Source: Flavobacteriaceae bacterium (lineage in GTDB: Bacteria > Bacteroidota > Bacteroidia > Flavobacteriales > Flavobacteriaceae). From it: a DNA stretch of 5,229 nt. The stretch spans positions 1-5,229 of the forward strand of contig JAESUF010000381.1 in the NCBI GenBank assembly GCA_016763215.1, read 5' to 3'. Of the stretch, positions 745 to 5,229 are shown piece by piece (position 1 is the first letter of the stretch; every line of letters starts with the position of its first letter). The notes beneath the pieces were generated by a model. That model was given only the letters and a program-made list of their open reading frames with translations. It made no database searches and had not been told where the DNA came from. The position numbers and the translations under genes were made by a program.

Positions 745-828
745 TCAGTTATCAGTTATCAGTTATCAGTTATCAGTTATCAGTTATCAGTGAACAATTA
801 CCAGTTATCAGTTATCAGTTAACAATTA
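745..828. repeat. Tandem heptamer array, 12 in-phase 7-bp units (TCAGTTA / TAACTGA)
   Basis: On the plus strand six exact TCAGTTA units (745-786) are followed by TCAGTGA, ACAATTA, CCAGTTA, TCAGTTA, TCAGTTA and ACAATTA, all in exact 7-bp register up to 828. A degraded partial unit may reach 835. The array fills nearly the whole 97-bp gap between the miaE stop and the DUF4268 start. Read as mRNA on the minus strand, the unit TAACTGA puts stop codons in every frame. Read on the plus strand, no exact unit makes a stop in any frame. The function is unknown; such arrays can change length by replication slippage. Confidence 0.95.
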
Positions 829-836
829 TCATTATT

Positions 837-2314: not shown

Positions 2315-2370
2315 GATTACGCAGGCTTATGTATTTTTTTGTATTTTGGATTCTCAACAAAGAATCAAAA

Positions 2371-4188
2371 ATGTTAGAATTAGCAGGAATCATAATTTTA
2401 GGAATTTTAGCGCAGTGGGTTGCTTGGCGGGTTAAAATTCCAGCGATATTACCATTAATATTAATTGGACTTTTAGTAGGCCCAATAGCAGCAGAATTTC
2501 TTTCTGAAGATGGTTCAAAATATATTGAGCCTATTTGGAATGGAACAAAAGGGCTTTTTCCTGGTGATGGACTCTATTATTTTGTTTCATTAGCCATTAG
2601 TATCATTCTTTTTGAAGGTGGCTTAACACTGAAAAGAAACGAAATAAAAAATGTTGGCCCCGTAATTTCTAAACTAATCACTCTAGGTTCTGCAGTTACG
2701 TTTTTTGGAGCTGGAATATTGACACATTATATTTTTGGTTTGGGATGGGAACTATCATTCTTGTTCTCTGGATTAATTATTGTTACAGGACCTACTGTTA
2801 TTACCCCTATTTTAAGGAACATTCCTTTAAAAAAGGATGTGTCTACTGTTTTAAAGTGGGAAGGTATTTTAATAGATCCTATCGGAGCTTTGGTAGCTGT
2901 ATTGGTTTTTGAATTTATTAGTGTTGGTAGTGGTGGTGGTTTTACCAAAACAGCATTAACTGAATTTGGTAAAATAGTACTTTTTGGAACTTCTTTTGGA
3001 TTTACGTTTGCACACGCATTGGCCTTTGTAATTAATAAAAAATGGGTTCCTCATTATTTAATGAATGTAGTTTCACTCTCTACCGTATTGTTGGTTTTTG
3101 TTGAATCTGAAGTTTTTGCTCATGAGTCTGGGTTACTAGCAGTTGTGGTCATGGGAATGGTATTAGGGAACGGTAAACTAAACAATATAAAAGAGCTATT
3201 ATACTTTAAAGAATCGTTAAGTATTCTCTTAATTTCCATTTTATTTATTCTGCTGTCTGCGAATATCAATATTGAAGATTTGATGTTGTTATACACTTGG
3301 AAGACCGCAGTACTTTTTGTTCTGATAGTATTTGTGATACGGCCTTTAGCTGTGTTTTTAAGTACTTACAAATCCAATTTAAAGCTCAACGAAAAATTGT
3401 TTATTAGTTGGGTAGGACCTAGAGGTATTGTAGCTGCAGGGATTGCTTCTCTTTTTGGGAGTAAATTGTTAAAACAAGGTGTAGAAGGTGCCGAATATAT
3501 TACACCGTTAGTATTTATGGTTGTTTTAGGAACGGTATTGTTGAATGCAACTACGGCTCGCTTATTTGCGAAAATTGTCGGTGTATTTTTGAAGAATTCT
3601 GATGCTATTTTAATTATAGGAGCTTCAAAATCATCTAGGCTGATCGCTAATTATTTACAAGACTATGGTAAAAGAGTTGTTTTGATTGACTCCAACAAAA
3701 CGTTTATAGAAAAAGCAAATAGCGAAGGACTGGAAGCTTTTGAAGTAAATGTATATGACGATGATTTAACTGACAATATTGAATTGAATGATGTTGGTTA
3801 CCTCATTGCTATGACGGGAAGTGATGCAGTAAATAAGTTTGCTTTAAAAAATCTGACTAAAGTTTTTGGTGAACATGGGGCTTTCCGATTGGCTAGTGCT
3901 GATGAAGTGAAAACTAAAAATTTCGAAGAAAAAAACCAATTCCTTACTCCACAAGACGATTTCATTAACTTAAGTGAAACGATACGAGATTATCCAACTA
4001 TTTATGAAATTGCAATTAATTCAGAAGAGGAATATAAAACGAACTTAAACAAGCTTCATCATCAGTTAGAATCGATTCCATTATTTGTAAAAACCAACGA
4101 TCAAAACATTTACTTGCTTTCTGAATTTGAAGAGAAAGGTATTTCGAAAGAGAATAGTGCGTTAGTCTATGTAGGAAATAAGATCTAA
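2371..4188 (+). CDS. CPA1-type cation:proton antiporter with C-terminal Rossmann-like (TrkA-N-like) domain
   Basis: This is an inner-membrane Na+(K+)/H+ exchanger of the Na_H_Exchanger superfamily, 605 residues from ATG 2371 to TAA 4186-4188. The frame opens at an earlier ATG (2329), but MLELAGIIILGILAQW from 2371 begins directly with the first membrane helix, and an A-rich leader precedes it. Residues 1-405 form about 12 membrane segments. Motifs, numbered from 2371, are LFEGGL (80-85), TGPTVITPILRN (139-150), EGILIDPIG (164-172) with D169 as the likely ion-binding carboxylate, ESGLLAVVVMGMVLGN (252-267) and VGPRGIVAAG (348-357) with R351. From about 411 a soluble Rossmann-like domain begins (ILIIGASKSSRLIA, with D440 at the end of strand 2), the position of a regulatory nucleotide-binding domain. 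The canonical Asn-Asp pair is Ile-Asp here. It is divergent from the glucosaminidase gene and convergent with dnaX. The cation preference cannot be read from sequence. Confidence 0.88.
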   Translation: MLELAGIIILGILAQWVAWRVKIPAILPLILIGLLVGPIAAEFLSEDGSKYIEPIWNGTKGLFPGDGLYYFVSLAISIILFEGGLTLKRNEIKNVGPVISKLITLGSAVTFFGAGILTHYIFGLGWELSFLFSGLIIVTGPTVITPILRNIPLKKDVSTVLKWEGILIDPIGALVAVLVFEFISVGSGGGFTKTALTEFGKIVLFGTSFGFTFAHALAFVINKKWVPHYLMNVVSLSTVLLVFVESEVFAHESGLLAVVVMGMVLGNGKLNNIKELLYFKESLSILLISILFILLSANINIEDLMLLYTWKTAVLFVLIVFVIRPLAVFLSTYKSNLKLNEKLFISWVGPRGIVAAGIASLFGSKLLKQGVEGAEYITPLVFMVVLGTVLLNATTARLFAKIVGVFLKNSDAILIIGASKSSRLIANYLQDYGKRVVLIDSNKTFIEKANSEGLEAFEVNVYDDDLTDNIELNDVGYLIAMTGSDAVNKFALKNLTKVFGEHGAFRLASADEVKTKNFEEKNQFLTPQDDFINLSETIRDYPTIYEIAINSEEEYKTNLNKLHHQLESIPLFVKTNDQNIYLLSEFEEKGISKENSALVYVGNKI

Positions 4189-4296: not shown

Positions 4297-5229
4297 TTAG
4301 ATGTCTAACTGAAACGTCTCTTTTAGTTTTTCAATAAAAGGATTTTTTTCTTTCAGCTTATTGTATTTCTCTAATGGCGTGTAGACAAACTTTTTTTCAA
4401 TAGTTTCATTGACTATAACCTCCAAGCTAATTCCATAATTATTTAAGGATTCACGTAAAAATTTTAAAAGCTTCGAACGACCTTGTTTTAATTGATCTTG
4501 CATCTGTTTATTAGGAAGTGCAAACTGAATAACAAAACCTTCTTTTACTATAGGTAAATCGGTAGCAATAATTGAAGCCATACTTTTCTCCCCTTTTTTA
4601 ATGAGTAGTTCTTGATAGGTATTCCAAAGTTTATGCAAGATTTCTTCTGTAAAACTATCTTTTGGATGATTGTCAAAATTCTCTTCAAGTGTTGTTTTTT
4701 TCTCCCCTTTTTTTTGATAAACACTTTTTAGAGAAAGAGAAGAAGCTCGTCTTTTAACATTCTTTAAAACTGGCGGTTTTATCTTTTGAACAATAGATTT
4801 CCCCTCAACAATAGGTTGCTGAGTAACCTCTTGTGCTTTTTTTATTGGAGCTGTTTTTTTTGAAATTTCTTTTGCTACTGGCGATAAAGAAGTAAAGAAA
4901 GTAGCAGGGATTATGTAGTTAGCTGGCTTTTTTTTTTCTCCATCAAATGTGATAGAGGCAATTTGCATTAAAGTCAATTCAACCAACAACCGTTGATTTT
5001 TACTGGTTCTATATTTTAAATCACACTCATTTGCTTTATCAATAGACTGGATTAAAAAAGGAATACTTGTTTTTATTGCCTGTTCTAAATAACGCTTTTT
5101 GGCAGTATCACCAACCTCCAAAAGCTCAATAGTTACTTTGTCTTTGGCCACCAATAAATCTCTAAAATGGGAAGCTAAGCCATTGATAAAATGATGACCT
5201 TCAAATCCTTTGCTAAGTACGTTGTTAAA
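4297..5229 (-). CDS. dnaX: DNA polymerase III subunit tau/gamma, C-terminal part (5' end outside window)
   Basis: The minus frame is open from the window edge to TAA 4297-4299, giving 310 residues. The TTG at 5152-5154 is internal, because the upstream codons spell LSKGFEGHHFINGLASHFRDLL, a DnaX collar-domain (domain III) signature. DnaX is the clamp-loader ATPase subunit, and its tau form also ties the loader to polymerase and helicase. The N-terminal ATPase domains are missing here. In fragment numbering, domain III runs from the edge through NQRLLVELTLMQIASI (78-93). Next comes a Lys/Pro/Ser-rich, low-complexity linker (about 98-190). Last is a C-terminal tau domain (about 191-310, from DSFTEEILHKLW) ending YTPLEKYNKLKEKNPFIEKLKETFQLDI in two steps (fragment 283-310), as is usual in Flavobacteriia. 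An A10-G slippery tract at the domain III/linker border suggests a shorter gamma-like product (separate entry). The linker also holds A7-A8 runs. The gene is convergent with the antiporter gene. Confidence 0.93.
   Translation of the reverse strand, partial: FNNVLSKGFEGHHFINGLASHFRDLLVAKDKVTIELLEVGDTAKKRYLEQAIKTSIPFLIQSIDKANECDLKYRTSKNQRLLVELTLMQIASITFDGEKKKPANYIIPATFFTSLSPVAKEISKKTAPIKKAQEVTQQPIVEGKSIVQKIKPPVLKNVKRRASSLSLKSVYQKKGEKKTTLEENFDNHPKDSFTEEILHKLWNTYQELLIKKGEKSMASIIATDLPIVKEGFVIQFALPNKQMQDQLKQGRSKLLKFLRESLNNYGISLEVIVNETIEKKFVYTPLEKYNKLKEKNPFIEKLKETFQLDI
4873..4906 (-). promoter_or_regulatory. Inverted repeat (possible RNA hairpin) downstream of the dnaX slippery tract
   Basis: In the mRNA sense TGCTACT (4906-4900) pairs perfectly with AGTAGCA (4879-4873), a 7-bp stem with a 20-nt loop. 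It begins 20 nt after the slippery tract. E. coli dnaX has a stimulatory stem-loop there but at a shorter spacing (under 10 nt), and this loop is large, so a stimulatory role is only possible. Confidence 0.35.
4919..4937 (-). promoter_or_regulatory. Candidate dnaX programmed frameshift or transcriptional slippage site
   Basis: On the minus strand, ten A residues (complement of 4928-4937) followed by G encode Glu-Lys-Lys-Lys as GAA AAA AAA AAG. This contains A AAA AAG in the same codon phase as the E. coli dnaX frameshift heptamer. A -1 shift then reads GCC AGC TAA, with the stop at 4919-4921. A shift the other way stops at 4911-4913. Either would end the protein just after collar domain III, as expected for a gamma form. 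A GGAG abuts the A run upstream. Use of the site is inferred. Confidence 0.6.

Follow-up and report, generated by a model that had tools for sequence, protein, structure and literature searches.

The window, the whole stretch of 5,229 nucleotides analyzed here (contig JAESUF010000381.1 of the Flavobacteriaceae bacterium assembly GCA_016763215.1), ends in the 3' part of a dnaX gene, whose 5' end lies beyond the window edge and in which tau is read in frame 0. Elsewhere in the window, a MiaE gene (837-1418) and a Na/H exchanger gene with a TrkA_N domain (2329-4188) flank a 261-amino acid minus-strand ORF (1468-2253), which gave no Pfam match at E<=0.001. The 7-bp repeat TCAGTTA occurs in about thirteen copies at window positions 745-835, an array that begins 5 bp ahead of the start codon (ATG at 739, minus strand) of a DUF4268 ORF (299-739) and is possibly a variable promoter or leader spacer. 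An Rfam scan of the window found nothing at gathering thresholds. The features of dnaX, listed from the gene to its parts, are these:

4297..5229, minus strand: 3' part of dnaX, 310 codons (collar end and tau tail), from the ORF and its tblastn relatives
4938..4957, minus strand: RNA hairpin CUCUAUCA-CAUU-UGAUGGAG, 8 bp with a loop of 4, flush against the A run, from predicted fold and conservation
4928..4937, minus strand: putative A10 slippage tract (T10 on the plus strand), followed by G, from sequence and relatives
4927..4933, minus strand: A_AAA_AAG heptamer in the E. coli phase, not conserved in relatives, from sequence
4919..4921, minus strand: TAA that closes the -1 frame two codons past the run (GCC AGC TAA), from sequence
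4911..4913, minus strand: TAA that closes the +1 frame (CAG CTA ACT ACA TAA), from the Ile codon ATA, from sequence

The gene was identified as dnaX from its tblastn relatives and from the DnaX clamp-loader domains that Pfam finds in a full-length relative from Polaribacter glomeratus (L003); the window piece itself had no Pfam match. Residues 1-310 of the piece were matched by 75 of the 80 closest relatives (best 80 of 127), with the matches of the other five extending to residues 304-309. Domain III (PF12169, with a bit score under the curated cut-off) ends at residue 349 of L003, and the A run corresponds to codons about 355-358 of that protein, just past the collar domain, in agreement with an earlier note on this DNA that had placed the tract 5-10 residues after the collar. 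On the minus strand the site reads GAT GGA GAA AAA AAA AAG CCA GCT AAC TAC ATA ATC, and the letters are those that the earlier note had described: A10-G with A_AAA_AAG in phase, a near stop in the -1 frame, and a stop after four codons in the +1 frame.

Three sets of dnaX loci were compared with the window. The close set comprises the best 80 of 127 loci found by tblastn, mostly from Polaribacter and Tenacibaculum, with protein identities of 57-71%. The other two sets come from groups defined around the genome of L003 (G001), which we take to be the Flavobacteriaceae and the Bacteroidota. The family search matched 116 of 120 genomes and gave a sample of 108 loci (L173-L280); this sample excludes G001, G110, G137, and G185, which are in other sets, as well as G214, G239, G260, and G263. 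The phylum search matched 196 of 198 genomes, and 147 loci among the matches listed were examined (L084-L172 and L291-L348), the remaining 49 being G001, G170, G099, and matches outside those listed. Except where the 147 loci are named, phylum counts of the run, the heptamer, upstream structure, and stops refer to 84 of the first 89 loci, 71 of them with the run; the other five had no usable alignment. Some of the phylum loci were first picked for a short frame, and the other listed matches were then added.

Every one of the 80 close relatives (best 80 of 127) has the A run at the codons where the window has it, as A10 in 56, A11 in 22, and A12 in 2, and a run of A8-A13 stands at the site in 107 of the 108 family-sample loci. 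Relatives that break the run, which the earlier note would have counted against its reading, thus amount to one locus among the 188 of the close and family sets. This locus (L274), the sole one in the family sample without a run, stops in the zero frame at the site (GTG GAA AAG TAA), so that only the gamma-like product is readable in frame; it is possibly an assembly error or possibly a real loss. Another family locus, L280, has only A8 yet carries, flush with the run, a 7-bp hairpin whose sequence is unrelated, and is a candidate for a short run compensated by a hairpin. Across wide divergence, the length was A10 or A11 at 177 of 187 loci. Both the phase of the run and the base after it vary (T in 63, G in 27, and C in 17 of 107 family loci), so it is the length of the run that is under selection.

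Comparable runs are scarce nearby: ORF stretches neighbouring dnaX, 201,144 bases in all from the same loci, hold two runs of A10, six of A9, and none longer, and the 80 close dnaX genes (best 80 of 127) hold eight runs of A9 or longer outside the site. At the site, all 80 close loci (best 80 of 127) have AAA at both inner Lys codons, and the last Lys codon is divided between AAG (36 loci) and AAA (44 loci), whereas Lys-Lys pairs elsewhere in dnaX include at least one AAG in 339 of 600 cases. In the nucleotide-level comparison proposed in the earlier note, the run and the -1 stop are kept throughout the close set (best 80 of 127), and AAG is common at other Lys-Lys pairs. Synonymous entropy in these loci (best 80 of 127) averages 0.07 bit over the scored codons from -7 to +2, versus 1.02 bits upstream, and is back to 0.8-1.6 bits from codon +9 onward. 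Several codons of the close set (best 80 of 127) are all but invariant against the usage of the gene, namely ATC (79 of 80 loci versus 8% of Ile codons), GCC (79 of 79 versus 14%), GGA (79 of 79 versus 38%), and ATA at +8 (80 of 80 versus 22%), the last of which supplies the +1 stop.

The wider phylum sample is divided with respect to the run. A run of A9-A11 was present in 100 of the 147 loci among the matches listed, and no run of A9 or longer was found in the other 47, within 60 codons after position 335; the count takes any such run in this interval, and a few far ones may be chance occurrences. The run is widespread, but about a third of the phylum sample has lost it or never acquired it. 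Gamma of this origin would thus be dispensable in some lineages. Examples of run-less loci are L136, L140, L147-L149, L163, L165, L292-L295, and L298-L302; 33 of the 47, those listed, have an open frame of 186-391 codons past position 335.

Both frames other than that of tau close soon after the run. The -1 frame meets a stop within three codons in all 80 close loci (best 80 of 127), compared with 51% when the downstream codons are shuffled synonymously; under the same null, a mean of 9.0 loci have both other frames closed within eight codons, and the observed number is 80 of 80 (best 80 of 127). Among loci with tau in frame 0, both frames close within eight codons in 84 of 88 from the family (null 18.5) and 39 of 46 from the phylum (null 10.0). 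The near stops, whose loss among relatives the earlier note had also named as evidence against it, have thus been retained in the close set and, where tau is in frame 0, in all but four of the family loci. They need not be made of the same letters: in many Tenacibaculum the run is followed by TCT AGC, and the -1 stop is a TAG. A -1 ribosomal shift needs closure on one side, whereas a polymerase that adds or drops A's needs it on both.

Tau occupies frame 0 in 88, frame -1 in 16, and frame +1 in 3 (L224, L228, and L270) of 107 family loci, and the corresponding numbers are 70, 29, and 1 for 100 phylum loci among the matches listed, with L088 of the phylum sample as the fourth +1 locus. In the split genes the zero frame stops 0-7 codons past the run, and tau lies in the -1 frame in 45 of the 49 loci. 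Where tau is in the -1 frame, the +1 frame is closed within nine codons in 40 of 40 loci; an exception among later loci, L348, closes after 41 codons. Six tails were read in shifted frames, and all are long and open: those of L088, L224, L228, and L270 end in FAYTxxEKY as in the window, L090 has a variant of this ending, and that of L103 is more distant. The +1 loci are four single genomes that a homopolymer sequencing error could relabel, although each has one open and two closed frames whatever its true A count. On a quick tree of 141 loci, in which 67 of 138 inner branches are weak, parsimony requires a minimum of 20 switches of tau frame and 16 gains or losses of the hairpin, numbers that should not be taken as firm.

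This drift of the tau frame and the hairpin 5' of the run are both additions to the earlier note. Taken alone, the hairpin of the window is only mildly unusual (65-nt piece, minimum free energy -9.7 kcal/mol, z -1.81; 11 of 200 shuffles fold as well). A flush stem is nevertheless predicted in all 80 close loci (best 80 of 127), with 7 bp in 5 and 8 bp in 75. The family sample allows an unbiased count, made on the 101 of 107 loci that have the run at the same codon: all 8 pairs are present in 52, versus 2.5 expected from synonymous resampling with the gene's own usage, and the distribution is bimodal, with 7-8 uninterrupted pairs in 57 loci and three or fewer in 44.

The fixed rare codons near the run back the hairpin, and some compensatory changes are supportive of it. 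An alignment of 27 distinct sequences, from loci chosen for having the hairpin so that the percentage of paired positions is biased upward, contains two-sided changes in 7 cells of 3 pairs; among 500 shuffles, none reached 7 cells, 39 reached 3 pairs, and 33 reached the number of pair types. Its covariation score, likewise from hairpin-selected loci, is 0.218, and no score above 0.108 arose when one arm was shifted along the other. Covariation is also seen across the family loci between the third base of Ile and the first base of Asp/Asn (67, 5, 6, and 7; Fisher p=0.0002; 85 of 101 loci) and between the first base of Ile/Val and the third base of Asp (64, 2, 1, and 4; p=0.00008; 71 of 101 loci), in tests that ignore kinship. 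The letters GGAG, which touch the run, are paired inside the hairpin, and L020 alters GGAG yet keeps the pair.

Outside the strict pattern, 14 of 51 family loci fold better than 95% of synonymous shuffles, where about 2.5 would be expected, and 9 of 51 fold worse than half of them. Among the 14, the main hairpin is built from different letters in L181, L214, and L225, and the stem is set off from the run in L223, L243, and L279; unrelated stems, located at the run or no more than 2 nt away, occur in others, including L242, L251, L270, and L280. In more distant phylum loci (L102-L172), upstream structure was no commoner than expected, with p<0.05 in 3 of 53. A covariance model of the hairpin plus nine A's was run on 60 family genomes. 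Its 35 matches at E<1e-3 all lie in dnaX, and outside dnaX nothing in these genomes fell below E=1e-3, under strict filters that lose weak matches. The next matches outside dnaX, at E=0.0067 and 0.0084, look like chance and were set aside. The hairpin is not essential, as the main register is absent in 44 of 101 family loci and the distant phylum loci show no excess, and because the run persists in relatives that lack the main-register hairpin, it would be a modifier and not the engine.

The earlier note had proposed a tau-like and a gamma-like product made by ribosomal frameshifting, by transcriptional slippage, or by both. The two products are strongly supported by the conserved run length, the stops on both sides, and the occurrence of tau in three frames; the choice of mechanism can be narrowed, with the two-sided stops fitting RNA polymerase slippage better than a -1 ribosomal shift. 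If gamma came solely from programmed -1 frameshifting of the E. coli type, the in-phase A_AAA_AAG of the window and its -1 stop two codons on, both of which E. coli dnaX also has, would be accounted for, and the prevalence of the -1 frame among the split genes is what this route, too, predicts. The emphasis that the earlier note had placed on the heptamer does not hold up, however: only 36 of 80 close loci (best 80 of 127), 21 of 107 family loci, and 18 of 71 phylum loci have it in phase, and it looks incidental, since relatives end the run with AAA, AAT, AAC, or AAG. Nor is there the conserved 3' stem-loop of E. coli. Downstream structure showed no excess over the null, with folding energies that averaged -1.68 versus -1.83 for the null in the close loci (best 80 of 127) and -5.00 versus -4.79 in 88 family loci. 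At p<0.05 there were 2 of the 80 close loci, where a control stretch gave 4, and 6 of the 88 family loci, where the control gave 3; synonymous sites are free from codon +9. The window alone has a possible stem about 20 nt past the run (70 nt, -6.9 kcal/mol), from a single fold with no null. The Shine-Dalgarno-like element of E. coli dnaX stands about 10 nt upstream of the slip site; judged on the GGAG, which adjoins the run, no such spaced stimulator was found here. Finally, the +1 stop is strongly kept though it has no role in a -1 shift, and four loci require +1. Frameshifting on the heptamer as the only source of gamma was therefore rejected as unlikely.

A smaller departure from our preferred explanation, to which we give a better but still minor chance, is that RNA polymerase slippage operates everywhere and that runs ending in AAG add slipping by the ribosome. 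It shares polymerase slippage with the preferred explanation, so the probabilities of the two do not sum to one. A10 and the in-phase heptamer coexist in the window, where a -1 ribosomal shift could contribute, and dnaX is described as using either mechanism, depending on species, in passages of PMC3711429 and PMC5009743. Against this, close relatives switch between AAG and AAA while little else near the site changes, giving no sign of selection on the heptamer. An A10 tract is also long enough to mutate, and relatives differ in the DNA register that holds tau, as expected if replication slippage at a contingency tract switched dnaX on and off by phase variation. An essential clamp-loader gene is an unlikely on/off switch, and the near-constant run length over wide divergence, the closure of both other frames in the split genes as well, and the long, open tails of the six shifted loci led us to reject this as very improbable. 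The remaining alternative, chance and codon bias in a Lys-rich linker of AT-rich genomes, can point to AAA making up 84% of the Lys codons in dnaX, but is contradicted by the alignments, given the two A10 or longer runs in 201 kb of neighbouring ORF stretches, the fixation of GCC, ATC, and ATA near the run, and the excess of full hairpins in the family; we rejected it as well and attach next to no probability to it.

The features that are kept are those of polymerase slippage and not those of E. coli frameshifting, and we thus prefer slippage. In our view the A10 tract is most likely a programmed transcriptional slippage site of the Thermus type, which the hairpin, in that part of the family that has it, probably boosts. 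From the run, the hairpin, the two closed frames, their conservation, and the three registers of tau, all of which are there in the aligned sequences, we infer the following course for the slippage, the ratio of products, and the effect of the hairpin. RNA polymerase would copy the T10 template, and the A:T hybrid would slide, yielding mRNAs with 9, 10, 11, 12, or other numbers of A's. Those with 10+3n A's would be translated into full-length tau, and all other A counts would take ribosomes into the -1 or +1 frame and to a stop after two or four codons, so that shifted reading would give a gamma-like clamp-loader subunit ending just past the collar domain. As the tract is transcribed, the nascent RNA may fold into the 7-8-bp hairpin at the run, which is predicted in the window, in 80 of 80 close loci (best 80 of 127), and in 57 of 101 family loci. 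The hairpin would sit in the RNA exit channel while the polymerase is on the A tract, where it probably increases or adjusts slippage in the way proposed for the Roseiflexus IS630 stem-loop.

Transcriptional slippage at nine A's is known from dnaX of Thermus thermophilus (Larsen et al. 2000, as cited in PMC5009743 and PMC1088944), and the Thermus tract placed in E. coli is reported to give both -1 and +1 shifts (PMC6260861). As described in the passages of these papers, Thermus dnaX resembles the window in having a run of at least nine A's, tau in one ORF, near stops in both other frames, and a short product; in the window, too, the run of at least nine A's lies past the collar and near stops stand in both non-zero frames. 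Two things set the present loci apart from Thermus: the conserved flush 5' hairpin, which the close relatives (best 80 of 127) and part of the family sample add, and the presence of tau in all three registers among relatives. A passage of PMC1088944 notes that slippage yielding a truncated product is hard to detect by comparison; the closed frames in our alignments provide that comparison for what would be slippage of this kind. In Roseiflexus IS630, a stem-loop promotes slippage from the exit channel (Penno et al. 2015, as cited in PMC5009743), and there, as predicted here, it forms in nascent RNA directly 5' of the slippage motif. According to that account, however, the IS630 motif is U5C5, shows no detectable slipping alone, and belongs to a transposase gene, whereas the dnaX motif belongs to a replication gene and is A10, which in other systems is long enough to slip unaided. 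It is doubtful that slippage in dnaX would depend on the stem-loop, given that the run is retained in relatives where the main-register hairpin is missing.

The passages of the GeneTack study of 2013 (PMC3711429) report 17 two-ORF dnaX genes from 12 genera, nine of them with A10, with tau in the -1 ORF, and propose transcriptional realignment for them. The split genes L090, L092-L094, and L096-L100 look like members of this class. Two-ORF dnaX genes with A10 have thus been known since 2013, and the window is a variant of a known phenomenon; what goes beyond these passages is the one-ORF and +1 layouts with A10, the hairpin, the selection for stops on both sides, and the range across the phylum. 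Among open-licence papers, we found none that apparently describes the hairpin or this distribution.

We give even chances to the further idea that the Flavobacteriaceae possess a compact hairpin and poly(A) cassette that sets the tau:gamma ratio from within the exit channel, and that the gene drifts between layouts around it. With a mixed output of all three frames, such a cassette would leave selection indifferent to the frame of tau in the DNA, and the one-ORF, -1, and +1 layouts could interchange without losing either product. If hairpin-assisted slippage does take place, it would, to our knowledge, be the first example in a chromosomal housekeeping gene. Annotation can misread split dnaX genes of this kind as truncated or frameshifted. 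If our explanation is correct, it would extend gamma made through RNA polymerase to nearly all of the family sample and two thirds of the phylum sample, and it would provide a natural system in which to test why dnaX retains two products.
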